Under the pieces are notes generated by a model. The model searched no databases. It had not been told where the DNA came from and saw only the letters and a program-made list of their open reading frames with translations. This document shows positions 1,361 through 43,636 of a stretch of DNA of 64,000 nucleotides, piece after piece. A program made the position numbers and the translations under genes. Every line of letters starts with the position of its first letter. Position 1 is the stretch's first letter. Source of the DNA: Vicia villosa (taxonomy: Eukaryota; Streptophyta; Magnoliopsida; Fabales; Fabaceae); contig NC_081180.1 of NCBI RefSeq assembly GCF_029867415.1, forward strand, positions 24,018,808 to 24,082,807, read 5' to 3'.

Positions 1361-4300
1361 ATGAGTAGCAAAAAAGGGCACACGGTGATGAACGTTGGAA
1401 CTGATGGAGTTGCCATCATCACCATCATCAATCCTCCTGTCAATTCTCTCTCCTTTGATGGTATTATCGTCTAGTTTTGATTCCTCCTTTCCATTCTCCG
1501 ATCTGTTTTTCGCGTAATGCTGATTAATTTATTACGAAAATTGAGATGTTTTTATGATGCATGTGGCCAGTATTGCAAAGTTTAAAGGAGAGTTTTGATC
1601 AGGCTGTACTGAGAGATGATGTCAAGGCAATTGTTGTTACAGGTATTGCAATGTGCTTTTGAATTGAATATATTCAATTTTGATGACATAGAGATAATCT
1701 TTGTCAACTGTTTTATAGCTGTAGCATTATAGCTGAATCTTTGTTTCTTTATTAGGTGCAAAGGGAAAATTTTCGGGAGGTTTTGATATTTCCGCATTTG
1801 GTGGTCTTCAAGAGTCAAAAGGTACTTCATATTTTGGAAGTGAAGTGGTGTTTCTCAATTGTATTTGTAGTTATGTTTATATTATAGTAACCCTTACCTT
1901 ATTATATTCATATAGAGCGTCCCAAACCCGGGTGGATATCGATAGAAATCGTCACCGATACAATAGAAGGTAAGTTGATTTTCATAAATTTTTTATTTAC
2001 AATTCCTTTCTCTCATTTTTTGCTATGTTGAATCATTGAATCAATTCATTTCATATTTCAGCGGCAAAGAAACCCTCGGTTGCTGCCATTGATGGCCTTG
2101 CCTTGGGCGGGGGATTAGAAGTTGCAATGGTAAGAGTTACTACCTATTAAGAAAGAAGAAACGTTTTTTCATTATTTTCTACAAATATATTACCGGTTCT
2201 TTCTCATATAGGCATGCAATGCCCGATTATCAACTGCAACTGCTCAACTGGGTTTACCCGAACTTCAGCTTGGGATAATTCCTGGATTCGGAGGTAGTTG
2301 ATTGAACTCAATTAATTCCTTTCTATCTTCAAGTTGACTTATTTTGTGTTTGTGTGTGACTTGAAATTGAGTGCATTGAGAAGATACTGAAGAAGCAATT
2401 GAAATGAGATATCATCACTTAATCGTCATTTATGCGATTAGAACTGTTCATATAAGGAGAGTTCTCTGCCTATAAAGGACTTATTTTCCCGTTGTCTGTA
2501 AACGACTTATTTTCCCTTTGTGTATATACATATTTTTTTTCTTTGGATTATCCCTGTTTAAATTTTATAGACATGCTTTTAATGAGTTTATTAATTAAGT
2601 GAAAGTTCATACCTGAGGTGATGGCTTGCTACCTTGATTCTTATGTTAGATAGAATCATAGACATCAAATAATTTGAAATAAGCAATAAAAACAGAAAGA
2701 AATTCGACCATGAGTGCCAGCGACTGTCTTATGTGTAATTATTCTTATTCATTTTTTTTCTTTAGCAATGTTAACCTTGAGCTGTAAATTTTGTCTTAGG
2801 AACACAGCGACTTCCTCGTCTGGTTGGTCTGACAAAGGCACTTGAAATGATGTTGGTATGCCACAAATTTTGCTCTCTTATATATAATTTTGTGATTCTG
2901 TTGAATATGAAGAACTAAACTTAAAACCTGATCTATCCAATTTCATGGTTGTTGATAGATCAAACAACATATAGACTCTTATCCATTCAAATTTCATCAT
3001 AATAGACAGGTTTTTGGTTCAATTCTCCATTTGGAATGGAATTGCATTTTTCATAAAATATTTAAGAGTTGTGACACCAAAATCACTATCCAATGATTTT
3101 CAAATTAATTTCTTTCATTCTTTTATTCTCTAAATTAAGACTTCCAAGTCAGTGAAAGGGAAGGAAGCTTTTAACTTGGGGCTCGTAGATGCTTTGGTGT
3201 CACCTGATGAGTTGGTGAACACTGCACGCCAGTGGGCCCTGGATATGTTGAACAGCCAACGACCATGGATTGCCAGTCTTTACAAGACTGCAAAATTAGA
3301 ACCTCTTGGGGAAGCTAAAGAGATATTGAAATTCGCACGCGCTCAAGCTCAAAAACAGGCTCCTAATCTCAAGCATCCTCTAGTTTGCATTGATGTTATT
3401 GAAGCGGGAATAGTTTCTGGTCCCCGTGCAGGACTCTGGAAGGTAATATCTATCGCCAGTGTACATTTACCCCATACATATTACTGTTGCAGAAACGCGT
3501 AATGACATTGTTTGATCTTTGAAGGAAGCTGAAGCATTTGATGTACTGGTACAATCAGAAACTTGCAAAAGCTTAGTTCACGTATTTTTTGCTCAAAGAG
3601 GAACAACTAAGGTTTGTTGAAGTTTTGTATTCTAGCTGGAAAACACAGTTTAAACTAATGCATAGAAGTTTTGGGAAGAAATAATCTTCTACTCTTGTTT
3701 CTCTTCTTTTAAGTATTTCTTTTAAAGAAGACTATGATGTACTCCCATCACCCCCTTTGAGTGTGGAACTAATATCTGCCTAAGTGTTGGATTAGCCTGA
3801 CCACAAAATGGTGGGTTTCAAAGCCCTGCCCTGCAAGTAAAGGTCACCCCTAGCTAATGTGGTGCTCGATTTGTGAATTAAGCCTCAAGGAGTTTTTGCT
3901 CTGCTCACTTTTTACATGTAGGGAGCGGATACATGGGACCGAGTCTGACCTTTTAACTCCACTAGATCTTTAACTTAGGGATATATGCCCAACTGGTGGC
4001 TATATAGGAGAATTATGGCCAAAAACTGAATTTGGCCTTTATTTCCCTTGAAGTACCTTTTATTTTAGATTATACGGTAATTGATATAGAGGACTAAATT
4101 GTTGTTTCCTGTGATAAAAGTGATACCGTTTGAGTATTATATTTGGGTGAGTAATTATAGTTCGACAAGATTGTTCATACAGTTTATTTTGAAACTGTAT
4201 TAGTTTATAATCATTGTTTGCAATGCTTAGGCTTGATGTGAATAGGATGATACCTCCTTTCAAGATGGTCATGTTTTCCCCATTTCTATAATTCTGCTGA

Positions 4301-6556
4301 CAATTTCAAATCTTGAAAATTTTGAATCCTAACTCATATTGAATCTTTTCCTATTCACATCTTAAATTTGAAAATAGTGTTTTTAAATAAGGTTGTTAAC
4401 ACGCACTAGCCTGGTTCTGTATACTGTTTTTTGCAAATATTCTATAGATATGAATTTTCCAATATCTTTTGGCATCAACAGGTACCTGGGGTTACTGACC
4501 GTGGTTTGGTTCCAAGACAAGTGAAGAAGGTTGCTATCCTTGGTGGAGGACTAATGGGCTCTGGAATAGCAACAGCTTTAGTGCTTAGTAATTATTCTGT
4601 CATATTGAAAGAAGTAAACCAGAAATTCTTGGATGCCGGTCTCAATAGGATTAAAGGTGAGTACGAATTCTCTCAGTTGGCTTTCCTGGTATTCACACTT
4701 CGCCTTTGATTAAAAACTTCAGTCATGCTATTCTGATATAAATATTTTTCCTTTTTGTGCAGCGAACTTACAGAGCAGTGTTAGGAAAGGTAAATTGACT
4801 CAGGAAAGATTTGAAAAGACCTTCTCTCTAGTCAAAGGTTCACTCGACTATGAAAGTTTCAGAGACGTTGACATGGTGATAGAGGTGCTAGAATGAACTC
4901 CCATATAAATTTTCTTGTGGAGTCTGACATTCATTTACATCATCACATTGTATGTTATCCAAAGCTTCAGCAAAACATAAACTGTTTCATGTTTGGGCAG
5001 GCTGTTATTGAGAATGTTTCCTTGAAGCAACAGATCTTTGCTGATCTTGAAAAGTATTGTCCCCCTCATTGTATACTTGGTAGCAACACTTCCACAATTG
5101 ACTTGAACCTGATCGGAGAGAAGACCAAGTCTCAAGATCGAATTATTGGAGCCCATTTCTTCAGGTGGTATCTTATATCTGATAAACTATTTTCCCGCCT
5201 GCTGTATCTTTCTAACTGATTTTGACTTGTGCTTCTGCAGTCCTGCACATGTTATGCCACTTCTGGAAATTGTACGTACCAAGCAGACATCTCCTCAAGT
5301 AATAGTTGACTTGTTAGACATTTCAAAGAAGATAAAGAAAACTCCAGTGGTGGTTGGAAACTGTACAGGATTTGCTGTTAATAGAATGTTCTTCCCATAT
5401 ACACAAGCAGCTCTCTTGCTTATTGAACGTGGCACAGATGTTTATCAAATTGATAGAGCAATCACCAAATTCGGAATGCCAATGGGGCCTTTAAGGTATT
5501 AATGCCTGGATAAGTTCTTGACATCAACAGCTACTTCTCGAAGGGTCTAGTTTGTAACATAATTAATTTTGCAGATTGGCTGATCTTGTTGGTTTTGGTG
5601 TGGCGGTTGCAACTGGCTCCCAATTTGTTCAGAATTTTCCTGAGCGAACTTACAAATCAATGCTTATTCCCCTTTTGCAAGAGGATAAGAGGGCTGGTAA
5701 TGAACATAAACTCTACATTAGTTTGAAGATACAACTGTGGAATATAACCAATTAAGAATAAATTCCCTGGTGTTTTTATACTAAATAATCCACTGACTTG
5801 CGTTATACAACACTTGTTTCTAACAGGCGAAGCAACTCGCAAAGGCTTTTATTTGTATGATGATAGACGCAAGGCCAGTCCTGATCCTGAACTAAAGAAA
5901 TTTATTGAGAAAGCTAGGAGCATTTCCGGTGTCTCCGTTGACCCCAAGGTATTTTCATTCATCCTTTCATAATTTATGCCATTTTATTGGCTGGTGAGAA
6001 ACAAAATGCAAAGTAAAAGCAAATTCCACAAGAACTGATGTTGTGGATCTGAAACCTGAACAGCTTGTCAAGTTACAAGAGAAGGACATCATTGAGATGA
6101 TCTTCTTTCCAGTGGTGAACGAGGCTTGTCGTGTCCTTGACGAAGGTATTGCAGTCAAAGCAGCAGATCTTGATATATCTGCTCTCATGGGCATGGGTTT
6201 TCCAGCTTACAGGTCTGTCTTGGTAAAATTATTCGGCATGTTTTCCTAAACTTCATAATTGTTCTTAATTTTTGGGATTGATTTCTTCAGGGGAGGTATC
6301 ATATTCTGGGCTGACTCTCTTGGATCTAAATACATATATTCAAGATTAGAGAAATGGTCAGAGTTGTATGGACCTTTCTTCAAGCCCTGTGCCTACTTGG
6401 CTGCAAGAGCTGCCAAAGGAATTCCTCTGGTTAGTAACCTATGTTTGTTTATTTCCATCTATGCATACATGTGGTGCTATTCTTCAATTAGCCTCTAATG
6501 GAATTTGTGCTGTTTATTAGGGTGCCGCGGTGGAGCAATCTAAGTCACGGTTGTAG
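1361..6556 (+). CDS. MFP2: Peroxisomal fatty-acid beta-oxidation multifunctional protein, MFP2 type (18 exons)
   Basis: This enzyme combines 2-trans-enoyl-CoA hydratase and L-3-hydroxyacyl-CoA dehydrogenase activities, the middle steps of peroxisomal beta-oxidation. Exons by GT-AG splicing: 1361-1460, 1571-1642, 1756-1821, 1916-1969, 2062-2129, 2212-2293, 2800-2855, 3140-3442, 3525-3611, 4482-4656, 4763-4884, 5001-5164, 5241-5495, 5575-5696, 5827-5948, 6064-6212, 6291-6429, 6521-6556. They join without frame breaks into 723 residues, the usual family length (about 720-725). The crotonase domain (about 10-190) keeps both catalytic glutamates, E117 in LGGGLEVAM and E137 in GLPELQLG. The dehydrogenase Rossmann motif GGGLMGSG is at 317-324, and the catalytic pair is H447 (GAHFF) and E459 (LLEIV). 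The last three residues, SRL, are a PTS1 peroxisomal import signal. Wording such as VPGVTDRGLVPR matches the MFP2 branch better than AIM1. It is the only intact ordinary host gene here. Confidence 0.96.
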
Positions 6557-7635
6557 GATACTGATAGCCCCGTTACGTGATTATTTAATCGAATTTTATT
6601 TTCCCCTTTCTTTCTCCTAAATCATAATAATATAGTTGGAACTGAAGAAAGATCTAAATAATGTATGATGAGATAATAATTGACTACAACATAAATGTTT
6701 GGTCAAAATAGAAGTACCATAGGATCAGGTATATGAATTTCTCCACTTTTAATGTGTTTGTTGTTGTTACTAGCACCAATAATGGAAGTATGGAGTTGTT
6801 GGCTTAAATGGGATGGTCATTGCGGTATGTGGTGATGAAATGAATGAATTGCTTCTGCCACTAATAATGGCAACATTGATAATCCTAAATAATGCAACAA
6901 TTAGCAGATTGTATCTATATGAGCAACAAGCCTTGTAATTTTCCTTAAAACATGTGATGGTGACTCAGGCTGACATCCTGATTTTGAATACAGAGGAAAT
7001 TCATTTTTTTGCTTAACCCATTAAGCCTTTGATTTAATTGGCTCTTTTAAGAGCGTTATAAGTAATGCTAGCCGTAAGTTCCAAGGTACAACCTGTTGAA
7101 GAATATGGACCATCATAGCCTGACCAGCTACAATCTGCTTAAATTGTTGTCAGGATTGGGCAGTTATTTGGATTGGCTAGCTACATTGGTTTGAGCACCA
7201 TATCTTTGATAACTTTGCCTCTATCTCACTTATATAAATTACAGTCATAATTTATTTAACTAAGTTATCTGTAGTAAAATAGCAATGCTTTCCCCATTTT
7301 CTTCATGTTGGCTCCTGAGCAATAATGTTTTCTTTGGACTACAAAGAGAAAAGAAAAGAATGTTGAAAGAAAGAAAGTGAGGGAAATGGGAATGGAAAAT
7401 GAGGTGGATTTTTCATTGTTTGAAATGAGGGAAAAGAAAGATATATAACTATAAAATAACATAAATACTCTTATATCTATAATTAATATAACTAATATTT
7501 ATATAATTATATTTAATATACAGGCTAATAATATTCATAATAATATGTTTAATTTAATATTTGAATATAATTAAATGGGTTGTGAAATGTGGGGATTCGT
7601 CTGATAAGATTGGAAGATGCAATAGTAGTTGGAAT
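6557..7635. other. 3' flank of MFP2, no gene seen
   Basis: The first few hundred bases should hold the MFP2 3' UTR; AT-rich possible polyadenylation signals are present but none stands out. The remainder, including the AG-rich stretch at 7340-7440, has no recognisable coding, RNA or repeat structure. Confidence 0.5.
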
Positions 7636-7854
7636 TAGGGGTGTTCAAAAATATGGTTAACTGAATTGTATACTAGAACTGAATTGTTTTGCACCATTAA
7701 AACACTGAACCGCTTAAATGGTTAATGAACTGAACCATTTAATTTAAACAATTCAAATTCAGTTTAAAACCGGTTTAGAACCAGTTTCGTTTTATAAACT
7801 GGTTCGAAAATATTTGTTTTTTACTAAAACCAAAAATAATAATTTAGCACAAAA

Positions 7855-7980
7855 AAAATTAAAAAATATTTATTTTCCTGAAAATTAAAAAAATCTAAAA
7901 ATAATTTTTTTCTGAAAATTAAAGAATATTTATTTTCCAAAAAATTAAAAAAACCTAAAAATAATTTTTTTCTAAAAAAT
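7855..7980. repeat. Two tandem copies of a roughly 60-bp A/T unit
   Basis: Two consecutive copies of a unit containing TATTTATTTTCC and AAAAATAATTTTTTTCT can be aligned by eye, with a few substitutions. They lie inside the hAT element. The apparent open frame on the minus strand is a by-product of the repetition. Confidence 0.6.
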
Positions 7981-8089
7981 TTTAAAAAAATCCGTAAAAA
8001 TATATTCACTGTATGTAATATTTTTATGATTCAATAAATTATGTTTACTTACAATTTTAATCAAAATTTTCAAAAATACGAAAAATCAT

Positions 8090-8440
8090 TTTTTTTTTCA
8101 TAAAAAATCGAATTTTTCGAAAATATAAAAAACAAGTGTTTTCGAAAAAAATAAAAAAATCAAATTTTCGGAAACACGAAAAAATCGAGATTTTTGGAAA
8201 TACAAAAAATCGGGTTTTTTCGAAAAAAATTGAGTTTTCTAAAACACGAAAAATTGAATTTTTCGGAAATGCAAAAAATCAGTTTTTTCCAAAATACAAA
8301 AATTTTAGTTTTTTGAAAAAAAAAATGAAAAATTGAGTTTCCAAAAACACGTAAAAATCGAGTTATTTGTAAATATGAAAAAATGAGTTTTTTCGAAAAA
8401 AACAAAAAATCAAATTTTATCGAAAAATATGAATTAAGTG
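8090..8440. repeat. Degenerate tandem array of AAAATCGA-TTTTTCG units
   Basis: About ten imperfect units alternate an A-run plus TCGA with TTTTTCG(A/G)AAA. Each is itself partly palindromic, so open frames appear on both strands (8136-8336 and 8160-8405). These are repeat artefacts and are not annotated as genes. The array sits in the centre of the hAT element. Confidence 0.65.
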
Positions 8441-35639: not shown

Positions 35640-37336
35640 TCAAGTTTGATTTGGTACCCAATGTGCTTTGGGTCCATCATAGTTAGTTCCCTTCTTAACC
35701 CACACATAATGTCCACTTGCCACACTAAAGTTTCTAACATAGCAAGCATTAGGTGTATGGCCAACAATACCACAATAAAAACAAGTAGGAACAAAGTTAC
35801 TTTTATATCTAGGAACATATGGTTTCTTTTTAGGAAACCTTTTAGGATGATGATGAACCTTTTGTGCTTTATCCAATTTGTTGAATTGTTCACTTGCCTT
35901 CACAAAAATAGTTTTACTAGTACTTGGTTTGTTAGACTTTGCATATCCAAGACCACTTTTATCATTAGGGAATCTTTGTTGCCTAAGGACACCTTCCAAC
36001 CCAATTTGTCCTTTTTCATACCTTTCAAGTACTCTATTTAATTGAACAATTTGAAAAGAAAGTGATTCACATTTATTAAATGTATATTTTTGTTCAACAT
36101 ATTGTTTCTTTTCAACATCAAAATCTTTCTGCATGGTATCCATTTTCTCTTCAAGAGTTTTGATTTGTTCTTTTGAGTTGATACGGTTTTATACAAGATT
36201 TTGCATTCATTCAATAATTCATTTATAGCACCTTGAACATCATTATCAAAAAGGGAAAATTCATTACTAACCTCATTGTCTTCATCATCAGAATGGTGTG
36301 TTGCTACCAATGCAAGATTCAAATGTTCTTCATCTGAAGATGAACTTATTTCATTGTCATCCCATGCTACATATGCTTTCTTTGATTTTTTATCCTTATT
36401 TTTCTTGAAGTATTTGTTCTTCTTTTCAAGTTTAGGGCATTCACTTTTGACATGTCCTCTTTCTCCACATTCAAAGCATTTAATCTTCCTTATTGGTGCT
36501 TCCTCTTTAATGATCTCCTTTTTCCTTTCTTTTCTTAGAAATTTCTCAAACTTTTTGATAAACTCATTATCTTCTTCACTAGTGGATTCATCCTCTTGAT
36601 TGCTATCATGATGCTTGACTCTTGTCTTCAAGGCAATATCTTTTGAATCTTTTATTTGAATTTCATGCGTTTCAAGTCTTCCGAGTTCTGTTTCATATTC
36701 TTGAAGTTTACCGAACAAGGTTGCAGAAGTCATCTTTGATAGATTCTTTTTCTCGGATATCGCCGTTACTTTCAGTTGTCATTCTCTTGTTAAAGATCTA
36801 AGCACCTTTAGATTTAGTTCTTCGGTAGTGAGGGTCTTACCAAGTGCCTTCAAGTGATTTGTCAAATGAACGAATCGTTTTTGCAATTCGAGAATAGTTT
36901 CTCTGGGCTTCATTCTAAACAGTTCGTATTCTTGACTTAAGGTATTCAATCTTGATCTTTTAACTTCGGTGGTACCTTCATGAGTTTCTACAAGAGTATC
37001 CCATATTTCCTTTGCTGTTGTACATGCCGATACTCGGAAAAATTCATCCATACTAAGAGCACCTTGAAGAAGATTGATAGCCTTTTTGTCAGCAAGAACC
37101 TTCTTTCTATCATCATCATTCCATGAAACTTTAAGCTTTGTTGATTCAACACCATCGACAACAGTTGTAGGAACAAAGGGACCATTTTGGACTACTTCCC
37201 ATACTTCTTCTCCTTGTGCTTCTAAGTGAGCCTTCAATCGGATTTTCCAAAAGTCAAAGTATTCACCACAAAATAATGGAGGCTTGTTGTTACTACCACC
37301 ATCTCTAAAAACTGGATTTTGATTTGCGGAAGCCAT
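35640..37336 (-). pseudogene. Copia gag polyprotein (UBN2-type, two zinc knuckles)
   Basis: The frame starts at ATG 37336 with MASANQNPVF, followed by a UBN2-type capsid region (WKIRLKAHLEAQGEEVWEVV near residue 31; EIWDTLVETHEGTTEVKRSR). After LRSLTRE a TGA stop (36776-36778) interrupts. Reading on in the same frame gives a zinc knuckle CFECGERGHVKSEC (CX2CX4HX4C, about 36440-36480). A frameshift near 36150 precedes a coiled-coil-like segment and a second knuckle, CFYCGIVGHTPNAC (about 35740-35780). Gag forms the virus-like particle that packages retroelement RNA. With one stop and one frameshift this copy is probably inactive. Confidence 0.85.
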
Positions 37337-37383
37337 TCTGGATCTTTAGGAACAGGTTACCTATAACCTGCTCTGATGCCAAT

Positions 37384-39909: not shown

Positions 39910-39914
39910 ATATT

Positions 39915-40171
39915 TGATAGGAGAGTATTATAGAATTTATATTAATAGTTATTAGTATTGTTATTGGATTCTAGTAGTATTTGGGCCTTTAATTAGTTAT
40001 TGGGCTTTTAGTTGCTATCCTTTATTACTATATATGTACTCATTGAGAGGTGGGAAAAATTATCAATGAAATCAAAGTTATCTTTATTTTTAATTTCCTT
40101 TACTTGTAGTGTTCTTCCCCTTTTAGTTAGAAAACCCTAATTTTGTAGTCTTGATAGGAATCTTCCTATCA
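39915..40171 (+). repeat. 5' LTR (257 bp)
   Basis: This LTR contains the TATA-like element at 40028-40036 and lies 16 bases upstream of the first ATG of the chimeric ORF, so it would act as its promoter and leader. It looks identical to 43375-43631. Confidence 0.93.
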
Positions 40172-40187
40172 ATTGGTGCTTTCATCC

Positions 40188-43100
40188 ATGTACTCTTATC
40201 CTCCTATGGATTATGCTTATCATACACCTTCATCTCATCAATGGAGCATTCCTCCAACCTATTCCACACCCACACCAACACCTTCATTTCCATCATTCCC
40301 ATGGGAACTCTTCACACCTTACTACACTCATGGATCTTCATCACCAAAATTTTATCTAAATCATGGATATTCACCTCATACACCTACCTCATATCCACCA
40401 CCACCTAACTCATATTCATCATCTCATTATCCATTCTACTACAATAATCATCATCAACCACTGCAACCAACAAAAACCTATCACACATTTAAAAAAGATT
40501 TTGAGAAGCATTTACAAGTGTCTCATCCTTGTTTTAAGAAAAGATCTCAAAAAAAATCTCAAAACCCATTCCAATGCACAGTACCTCCGGATCGGAAAAA
40601 GTCTCACTTCTCTTTTAAGAAAACGAAACAAAAACAACATAAACTAAAGAACCTCTCACCCCTCAATATCCACTCCAGAGAGCTCGCTTTCACGTTTTCA
40701 GCAGGGTCGTCTTCTTTCACCGCGACTTCCTCTATGTTCCGATCTTCATCGTTTGGAGCACCGTCAACGGATTCTTTGCCATTTGGAGCACCTACCTCGG
40801 CTTCTTCAACACTGTTTAAGGCACCGCCGTCGTCCTCGACTTCTTCGACTCCGTTTGGATTTGCATCTTACACGACACCGTTTGGAGGAACATCATCTAC
40901 GACTGCAACAACAACATCTGTTTTCCACTCGCATGAGAACGACGCGAAGGTATTGTTGTTTAATGATGTTTTAGAACATAATGCATATGAGGTGTTTGAT
41001 AAAATACCTCTCTATGTTTCTGATGAGCTTGCGTTGGAAGATACTGGTTCCATGGTTTCTATTGAAGCTGAGAATGACGAGGAAATGATTGTGGATGGAC
41101 AAGGTCTTCAAATTAGAGTAGATTGTGATGGATACTCTACTGCTTGTTCAATTGATCATGAGAGTTTTAGTGACAACGTGATGCAGCAAGGTTTCACTTT
41201 GAATACCATAGCGAAACTTCCACGACCTCCTGAACCTCCAGTTGAGTTGCATGCCTCAGCAGGCTCATATAATAGCGCCGAGACAGAATCTATACATTGT
41301 GATTTTTCTACAACATTATCACCAAAAGTTCCTTTGACTTCTCAAGAATTTACACCTTCACCGGCAGTAGAATCAAGTTTTGAACCCCCAGGTCAGATCA
41401 ATGCACAAACAGAAATAGAAGAAGGCGAGGAATATCTTGAGGTTCAGAATTGTGGCGTGGAAACAAATGATAATCCACACTCAATCTCATTGGAGTTGCA
41501 CGACCCTACCGGTTCTACGACTAACAACAAAACCGATATTGTGAATTTTGATTCTGCAGCAATAGCAATAGTTATAGAATCACTGATATCAGCATGGCCA
41601 GATTTTACGATGAACACAGACGCATTGAGAAAGCTACATTTTGTTATTCTGGCTCTGCTTAGTGCTTCTATAGTTCAAGATGAAGGTGGTTACAAATATT
41701 TTACATGGACTGTTACTTATGGAACTCTTTCTCCTTTAGGTACTCCTCAGCAGGTGATTCTGATCAATGGTCAATTTCCGGGGCCTCAAATAGACTTAGT
41801 AACTAATGAAAATGTGATTCTCAACCTTGTCAACAAATTGGACCAACCATTTCTACTCACTTGGAATGAATCTATTGGTTCTTGGCATCAGGAGGCTGTA
41901 TCTGTCAGTTTAGAAACAGCTTTTACTTCAGATAGACACTTATATAGTGCTAGAGACGGGACCAGCATCGGAGATCCAACTGTTTCGTTTGAACAAGCCA
42001 AATTCCCTACAAATCCATCAGTTCATTCGCAGGAGGCATTAAGGTTAGTAAACTATGCTGTTGGAAAGTCTGTTGCTGATTTCAGAAGGGAAATGCAGAG
42101 ACATTCAATCGCAATTCGTCAATTATTGCACTACAAGGGACAGTCGGATCCTTTGAAGGGTGGTGCACTAAATAAAGCTGTGCGGGACACTGCAAATGAG
42201 GTTATCTTTGCAATGTTTTCAAAAGATAATGATAATGATGTCGAAGCTTCAGATTCCAGTGCTAAAATATGTAGCCCACTTGAGGCATCATTGCATGAGT
42301 CAATGTTTCAACTAGTTATTTCACAGTGGCGGCAGGTCTATGAAGGTCACTTTGTACCCAACAGTGAGATGGGAGATATTCAAATGGCCAATTCAATACT
42401 GGTTTTAAGGAGTTTCACAAGCAATTTCAGCAGGAAACATATATTTGGACAAGGAGGAACAGTAATGGCTAATAACAGCTTTTCCGATCTTCAAAATCCA
42501 CAATATGCACTTGATGGCAAAGCATGTGCAGCTGTTGGACATAGTAGTCTCATGACTCTCTATGATATCATGTGTAGTCAGCTTGATGTGACTTCAACCC
42601 AACTTGTGAATGATGATACCGTTTTGAGTTTTCCGACTGCTACTCTAAACGTCGTTTCGGTCTTAATCCCAGCCATCATCAATGGAGACTACTATGCTCG
42701 TGTTGAGGGGATGAAAATAATATCTAATCTAAATAAAGCTGTTGAGTCGCATATACACCCTACTGCACCAGTAACTACAAAGACAGGGTTAAGATCAATA
42801 TACACTCAGTTATGTCAGGATGACATGCCTATGGTTATAATATCTGATGCAACAAGTCTAGGAAAATTTGCTGCAACTGTTGAGTATACTCATTTTAAGG
42901 CTGACATCATGTCAATTTTTAACAATTCTGCTCTTGGAAAATTGTTGGAGCCACAAGATTGTGTTGCACATATACTCCTAGTTATGGTTAATTTCTCTCG
43001 GGATAAATTGTGGCGTGTCTGTTACATGGCTGCAAATCAGTTGTTTGAGCTCTATGAAGCTGTAGGCCGGAAACCCACCGGATCGGAGTTGGTCCCTGCT

Positions 43101-43331
43101 TATGTTGGATTGCTTCATGATAATGAGGCTGACGTACGCATAGCAGCTTCTGGGAAAGTGACTAAGTTTTGTCGGATTTTATGTCCCATAGAGACATCTT
43201 TGGATGCAGTGGAATCATCTTACATGAGAAAATTGATTTTTCAAATTCTGGAGTTTGTGTTGCAAATAATCAGTGATAATTTGTTATTCAAGCAATGGGA
43301 TCCAGGAACGATATCTCTACTCTCATATTGA
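40188..43331 (+). CDS. Chimeric ORF (about 1047 aa) assembled from host-gene fragments
   Basis: The frame is open from just after the LTR; the first ATG is 40188. Residues 1-160 are Pro/Ser/Tyr/His-rich, then Lys-rich, and unrecognised. Residues 168-248 are a Ser/Thr/Phe-Gly-rich stretch ([25 protein letters not shown]) like an FG nucleoporin. Residues 479-560 match the signal peptide and first cupredoxin part of SKU5-similar proteins ([35 protein letters not shown]). Residues 612-680 match the VHS/ENTH region of MTV1/tepsin-type proteins ([31 protein letters not shown]). Residues 866-1001 match HEAT repeats of PP2A scaffold subunit A ([44 protein letters not shown]). The parts at 250-478 and 681-865 are unidentified. 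Fragments are fused in frame without visible introns. Function unknown; these assignments rest on motif recognition. Confidence 0.85.
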
Positions 43332-43374
43332 TTTTAGAACCTTGAGGACAAGGTTCAAGTGAACCCCGCGGCAA

Positions 43375-43631
43375 TGATAGGAGAGTATTATAGAATTTAT
43401 ATTAATAGTTATTAGTATTGTTATTGGATTCTAGTAGTATTTGGGCCTTTAATTAGTTATTGGGCTTTTAGTTGCTATCCTTTATTACTATATATGTACT
43501 CATTGAGAGGTGGGAAAAATTATCAATGAAATCAAAGTTATCTTTATTTTTAATTTCCTTTACTTGTAGTGTTCTTCCCCTTTTAGTTAGAAAACCCTAA
43601 TTTTGTAGTCTTGATAGGAATCTTCCTATCA
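43375..43631 (+). repeat. 3' LTR (257 bp)
   Basis: This is an apparently identical copy of 39915-40171, followed directly by the TSD ATATT. Confidence 0.93.
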
Positions 43632-43636
43632 ATATT

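Follow-up and report, generated by a model that had tools for sequence, protein, structure and literature searches.

The 64,000-nucleotide stretch of the Vicia villosa genome analysed here (the window; NC_081180.1, positions 24,018,808 to 24,082,807) contains an element bounded by long terminal repeats (LTRs) that carries one open reading frame (ORF) joined from pieces of several host genes, and that belongs to a large family in the same genome. At a probability of about 0.72, we read this as a non-autonomous LTR retrotransposon family that repeatedly captures spliced host mRNAs by reverse transcription in trans with template switching, and in which an open frame is favoured. The sequences show a short LTR element that retains a family head and a tail, between which the host coding pieces vary in their succession but are read in one frame; blocks are shared between members in new combinations, and finished chimeras are present at more than one site.

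The window element is 3717 bp long and is built as follows (window coordinates):

39910..39914, no strand: left target-site duplication (TSD) ATATT, read directly.
39915..40171, plus strand: 5' LTR of 257 bp, identical to the 3' LTR.
40173..40186, plus strand: primer-binding-site-like motif TTGGTGCTTTCATC, one base past the 5' LTR.
40188..43331, plus strand: single chimeric ORF of 1047 amino acids, from the ORF reading.
43332..43374, plus strand: conserved post-stop tail starting AACCTTGAGGACAAGGTT, which other members read in either of two frames.
43375..43631, plus strand: 3' LTR of 257 bp, identical to the 5' LTR.
43632..43636, no strand: right TSD ATATT, read directly.

An initial annotation of this DNA had proposed a recent LTR insertion whose only content is a single, enzyme-free frame, and this description held: the two repeats are identical over their full length, ATATT lies on both flanks, the ORF starts with an ATG 16 bases past the 5' LTR, and Pfam at E up to 1 gave no polymerase domain in it, the only matches being Cu-oxidase_3 (1.9e-12), PPP2R1A-like_HEAT (2.2e-7) and HEAT (0.0034). 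Because the LTRs are identical, the insertion is taken as recent. The element is an LTR retrotransposon by its direct terminal repeats with TG...CA ends (the alignment runs to 259 bp since two flanking bases agree) and its TSD; movement through RNA is indicated indirectly, by spliced cargo and by near-identical family copies at unrelated sites. The motif TTGGTGCTTTCATC is exact in 24 of the 27 elements examined and is a putative primer-binding site. At the local base composition, a run of 1048 codons free of stops has a probability whose natural logarithm is about -65, under a null that ignores that the pieces were already coding when captured. Elsewhere in the window, Copia-type gag remnants lie at 35640-37345 on the minus strand, where Retrotran_gag_2 (5.7e-22) and a zinc knuckle occupy adjacent frames.

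The following pieces were recognised inside the ORF, all on the plus strand:

40188..40517, plus: head module, residues 1-110 (MYSNPPMDY...), family-wide, perhaps a gag start.
40689..40931, plus: FG-repeat stretch, residues 168-248, in common with protein P0001; weak.
41196..41609, plus: PHD/SPOC (AIPP2-like) gene stretch, residues 337-474; protein P0004, 58% identity.
41646..41864, plus: SKU5-similar stretch, residues 487-559, from two host exons; host C1:63956320-63956840.
41886..42038, plus: proline/SR-rich gene stretch, residues 567-617; host C2:15143200-15143500 and Vicia faba P0013.
42033..42239, plus: MTV1 VHS/ENTH stretch, residues 616-684; PDB 1vdy_A, 1.3e-24; C7:104306600-104307000.
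42228..42350, plus: stretch of an unnamed host gene, residues 681-721; exon C1:95301440-95301620, 77% over 682-720.
42465..42620, plus: P5CS stretch, residues 760-811; PDB 8.2e-12; exon C6:87554370-87554560, 86% over 764-799.
42651..42743, plus: SF3B1-like stretch, residues 822-852; PDB E 0.034; weak.
42756..43187, plus: PP2A-A scaffold stretch, residues 857-1000, from at least three host exons; host C1:75549130-75557980.
43188..43331, plus: tail module, residues 1001-1047, whole or in part in L010, P0001, P0011, P0014 and L027.

For the donor hunt the genome was searched with three parts of the ORF and the exon stretches were read, together with phmmer against the PDB and Pfam. Six pieces were matched to host exons of the same genome (SKU5-similar, proline/SR-rich, MTV1, the C1:95301440 gene, P5CS and PP2A-A), which agrees with the proposal in the initial annotation of an element like Bs1 of maize with more donors. 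The families it had named were likewise found: PP2A-A at residues 856-1000 (phmmer 1e-58), MTV1 VHS/ENTH at residues 610-683 (phmmer 1.3e-24) and an SKU5-like multicopper-oxidase stretch at about 487-563 (Cu-oxidase_3), while its FG nucleoporin stands only weakly, through a Nucleoporin_FG match (E 0.0067) in the related P0001 but none in the window ORF. P5CS, SF3B1 (weak), the PHD/SPOC gene, the proline/SR-rich gene and the unnamed gene had been missed. No normal gene without LTRs was found to hold the whole ORF, the best protein match among the 7987 candidates scored, those with the most words in common, being a family member at 45% coverage. The idea of a normal conserved gene with incidental repeats was rejected on the identical LTRs, the TSD and the fact that the relatives of large parts of the ORF are other elements. 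The introns beside the exons suggest that the SKU5-similar and PP2A loci are host genes and not captured copies; the other donor loci are called putative host genes from their short open frames, and C7:104306600-104307000 is assumed to be the MTV1 host gene. The PHD/SPOC stretch has genome matches at C2 174.57-174.74 Mb, which we infer to be a PHD/SPOC host cluster, and the Pfam result for P0004 agrees. Residues 249-336 and about 722-759 gave no donor in the own-genome, Pfam and PDB searches.

The joins are exact at the host splice sites examined. The first SKU5-similar host exon ends in CAGCAG followed by GT and the second starts past AG, and the window element fuses both with the intron gone; host GT donors also mark the ends of PP2A exon B and of the P5CS exon, at points where the window element runs on into coding sequence. 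The PP2A-A piece is without introns and has lost 17 residues relative to the host. A decayed relative, L051 (C6:80294880-80295500), has the PP2A-to-tail junction together with these 17 residues, and because it still has them their loss from the window element probably postdates the capture. At the junction from the proline/SR-rich piece to MTV1 the same three bases match both donors, and at that from MTV1 to the C1:95301440 gene about ten identical bases (GATAATGAT-like) do; such overlapping bases would be the trace expected of template switching by reverse transcriptase.

Residues 1-100 of the head match at least 150 places in the genome (150 of 150 scored, and 594 in a first look), and a search for other copies by LTR, as the initial annotation had suggested, gave at least 42 genome matches to the window LTR. 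With 40 of 1307 candidates scored in it, this search was discarded as a way of counting the family. About one third of the assembly is unplaced owing to heterozygosity, as far as the accessible part of the genome paper reports (PMC10659084), and the copy counts may therefore include allelic copies. Open frames of at least 700 codons occur at 60 of the 150 head matches (30 of the 40 top-ranked), and 57 of those 60 are stop-free within the match. Pfam was run on 30 proteins or ORFs, the window ORF included; P0004 was dropped as an ordinary host gene of the PHD/SPOC kind, as were P0002 and P0005, which repeat L038 and L041, and at least two unrelated host domains were found in 18 of the remaining 27. 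L033 has seven domains (Cse1, RPN1, ClpB-type AAA, Hsp70, formamidase, MCM and RSE1/SF3B3, by Pfam and also PDB); by Pfam, L015 carries FKBP, RPN1, a sugar transporter and WD40, and L041 Hsp70, Noc2 and weakly ABC. No Pfam family was found in five of the 27 (L014, L024, L026 and both L018 ORFs), and none in P0016 either. L033 and L037 are close copies.

Public protein sets list several chimeric ORFs (P0001-P0003, P0005, P0007, P0010, P0011, P0014, P0016 and P0024) as genes of Vicia villosa, P0001, P0003, P0005 and others being NCBI proteins with LOC names. At C762:177213-210033 there are nine gag-like matches (six, then three), mostly at 2887-2888 bp spacing and with open frames of 316-829 codons, a pattern like that of related elements repeated in tandem. 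L015 reads LTR-internal-LTR-internal-LTR over positions 1490-8238, its internal ORFs being identical across 2907 bases, as with unequal recombination. The family member L025 is embedded in a long tandem-repeat array and is flanked on both sides by numerous direct repeats that are about 72-91% identical. The seven head matches at C5:29.02-29.06 Mb and 33.01-33.09 Mb all have the same short frame of 158 codons and may represent a truncated lineage that multiplied, or else segmental copies.

Blocks are shared between members in different combinations. The window element has residues 1-472 in common with P0001 (65%) and residues 846-1047 in common with L010 (90%), in which the head is diverged and a kinase is present. 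L052 matches the window element at 98.2% over 1120 gap-free bp and at 98.6% over 366 bp; the two differ by 546 bp at a short repeat, which leaves the frame intact, and L052 has other donors further on. Finished chimeras also recur: L009 and L010 are the same chimera (99.65% over 3751 bp) at two sites whose flanks are unrelated and whose TSDs are AAAAC and AGATA, and L016 and L017 (96% over 3628 bp) are two insertions with TSDs TGTTC and ATCTT and LTR pairs that are 99.6% alike.

When 21 ORFs were compared, every stretch of 90 bp or more that they share (155 of 155) kept the same strand and frame; 24 of these lie beyond the head (20 of the 24 at positions about 60 bases or more apart), with the limits that the 21 ORFs are the longest of their loci and not free of ascertainment, and that the stretches are dependent through common descent. 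Sense stretches read off frame in the window element, L033 and L041 gave no Pfam match at E 0.1 (0 of 20, drawn from 33 listed stretches; six in or near the heads of the window element and L033 and seven of L041 were left out). Gap lengths were discarded as a test of frame, 172 of 334 gaps being multiples of three over all shared stretches. Against their donors the element pieces show 97 substitutions in 378 codons, with no stop where 4.1 were expected (P ~0.014). The ratios of nonsynonymous (dN) to synonymous (dS) substitutions per site (omega) mix purifying selection on host branches, separate captures of paralogues and drift in the element, the branches being unseparated: the PP2A piece of the window element has an omega of 0.68 to its donor (0.88 with wider edges) and host PP2A paralogues one of 0.04, and the proline/SR-rich, MTV1 and C1:95301440 pieces have 0.70, 0.89 and 0.78 to theirs. 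Between members, omega is 0.72-0.91 for the window element and L010 and 1.07, on five changes, for the window element and L052; 10 nonsynonymous changes and 3 synonymous ones separate the ORFs of L009 and L010, neither of which has an internal stop. The head module has an omega of 0.47 (131 overlapping comparisons). The tail DNA is read in two frames, depending on the member. Together, the frame data, the substitution data and the two-frame tail fit selection on openness more than selection on the peptide.

A mechanism consistent with these observations would run as follows. The head would act as a gag start, and a helper element would give Gag, reverse transcriptase and integrase in trans. 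Within the particle, reverse transcriptase would leave the element RNA at a short match, continue on a host mRNA or sister RNA packaged with it, and then return. Copies open from head to tail would leave more descendants: a premature stop can make an mRNA liable to decay, and in the element it would probably act through such decay or by disturbing packaging that is coupled to translation, whereby openness would be selected and the peptide, under no such selection, would drift. In Arabidopsis the translation of retrotransposon RNA is tied to its silencing via ribosome stalling, according to the accessible part of that report (PMC8892269). The stronger statement, that the family is selected for an open frame only, taking serial cargo from spliced host mRNAs and shuffling it by template switching blind to the peptide, and would thus be a natural, ongoing generator of random multi-domain fusion ORFs, we consider evenly balanced between right and wrong.

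Several observations weigh against this account. No clear polypurine tract stands ahead of the 3' LTR of the window element, where the site reads GTGAACCCCGCGGCAA (AAGGGG is present near the 3' LTR in some other members), and no autonomous partner was seen, there being no frame longer than 1145 codons among the 150, 127 and 71 listed head, gag-like and tail matches. In the stretch of L052 examined, an LTR pair is absent and just the last part of the head is present. Frames shorter than 700 codons occur at 90 of the 150 head matches, with a stop inside the match at 23 of the 150, and of 23 loci selected solely by their LTR only 4 have an ORF of at least 900 amino acids; the absence of stops in the 21 ORFs is there by construction, because the longest ORFs were chosen. 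L016 and L017 have in common a stop at codon 119, and because they are separate insertions a stop-bearing copy has probably moved. Some omegas are also low for a peptide that drifts: the donor comparisons pool to 0.57 (dN 0.078, dS 0.137), the SKU5-similar piece gives 0.22 with one host gene and 0.30 with another (only one of the two entering the pool), the P5CS piece 0.39 and L010 against the PP2A donor 0.44, and among copies the pooled cargo omega is 0.54-0.56, ranging from 0 to 1.82 by pair.

Some of these points suit an account without selection on the frame, in which openness is merely inherited: in-frame captures start open, a few open masters supply the copies, and young copies have not decayed. 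Among the 23 LTR-chosen loci, ORFs of at least 900 amino acids occur in four of the nine with a repeat pair of at least 98.9% identity (L015 being counted by its 99.8% tandem match), in none of nine with a lower pair and in none of five without a pair found, and frames therefore decay after insertion; the apparent movement of a stop-bearing copy favours the same account. The element pieces, however, have already diverged from their donors by about 0.14 synonymous substitutions per site and yet lack the 4.1 stops expected, 19.5 stops would be expected over the 543 substitutions of the pooled cargo comparisons between members (though these ORFs were picked open), and every one of many junctions would have had to fall in frame. 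We regard inherited openness as unlikely. A doubtful alternative, slightly less probable again, is that the fusion protein serves the element, for example as a Gag fusion with the cargo as spacer or localisation signal. The omega of the head would suit it, as would the weak case for a gag start in the head, but the cargo is unrelated between most members and changes in a near-neutral way in the closest pair (L009 and L010).

That some members are domesticated host genes under selection for a plant function is very improbable: members do carry LOC names as NCBI proteins, but the window element has identical LTRs and a TSD, change between copies is near-neutral, and no whole-ORF orthologue in another species was among the protein matches listed. 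Least credible of all is capture at the DNA level (nested insertion, Helitron or Pack-MULE) with the LTRs merely framing the result. Helitrons and Pack-MULEs typically capture genes on a mass scale, as the consulted portion of a recent review describes (PMC13317346), but here the introns are absent exactly at splice sites, which led us to reject this route, the shared pieces examined are all in sense, and the LTRs and TSD stand at the element ends.

The reading as a retrotransposon family that captures spliced mRNAs may extend beyond Vicia villosa. All eight protein matches to the head module of the window element are from this species. The gag-like head of related elements, with an E of 0.078 to PF03732, was found in six proteins including the query, among them two from Vicia villosa, two from Lathyrus sativus and one from Trifolium pratense; through L024 and P0017 it would weakly link the window head module to a gag start. 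In the Vicia protein P0024 the gag-like head is followed by glutamine amidotransferase, carboxypeptidase and RSN1_TM pieces. Lathyrus sativus P0021 has a gag-like head, a PPR piece (5.2e-26) and a C-terminal FEQWDPGKINLAIRFFTTLRTRLILKG that resembles the family tail by eye, which suggests that the element plan predates Vicia villosa; because gag-like head, host cargo and tail-like motif occur together in it, the plan may be tribe-wide in Fabeae.

The closest known system is Bs1 of maize, an LTR element with three host-gene segments and a chimeric gene that is reportedly transcribed and translated, which the 2026 review, in its accessible portion, gives as the plant LTR example with several host genes (PMC13317346), and whose pieces lack introns according to the part seen of another source (PMC4717578). 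Both systems join several intronless cellular gene fragments in one enzyme-free hybrid ORF; Bs1, however, is one element with three donors, whereas Vicia villosa has a family with six exon-matched donors in one member, and its members mostly differ in cargo (among those scanned) and exchange blocks. Bs1 itself was rejected as the identity of the window element, the matches listed containing no ATPase, xylan endohydrolase or glucanase fragment. Pack-MULEs and Helitrons are DNA transposons that copy genomic DNA, from which splice-exact loss of introns and a single retained frame would be unexpected; they resemble the Vicia family as mobile families that sample host genes en masse (PMC13317346, in the part available).

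Within legumes, GmaRetroS15 of soybean carries three host-gene fragments that are intronless and transcribed, with TSDs, as stated in the section of the source seen (PMC4717578). The gene-carrying terminal-repeat retrotransposons in miniature (TRIMs) of soybean and Medicago are likewise short legume LTR elements, but they measure 1,172-1,449 bp and the accessible text mentions no long shared frame; the window element, at 3717 bp and with an ORF of 1047 codons, is not a TRIM. The portions available of the respective reports give 425 LTR elements with gene fragments in maize, with no case identified in which two or more standard nuclear genes were combined (PMC2774510), and 672 LTR-captured genes in rice and 1,343 in sorghum (PMC3726574). 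These captures likewise place host fragments inside LTR elements, and multi-donor fusions go unmentioned for rice and sorghum in the text seen. Our literature search, whose coverage excluded most subscription papers, returned no report of such a Vicia family, and the term 'gene fragments' is absent from the body text of those Vicia villosa genome papers that were searched for it. The mechanism thus appears Bs1-like, and the scale, the modular exchange and the single-frame habit would be new as far as the literature was searched.

Gene capture by plant LTR elements has so far been known mainly from single cases such as Bs1. In Vicia villosa there are many young chimeras with varied donors and common blocks, from which the rate of template-switch fusion, the sites of short matches and the sources of the mRNAs are measurable, and the family separates selection on the frame from selection on the peptide. 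Its members listed at NCBI can mislead gene-family counts, and the family is a ready supply of new fusion genes for tests of expression and domestication.

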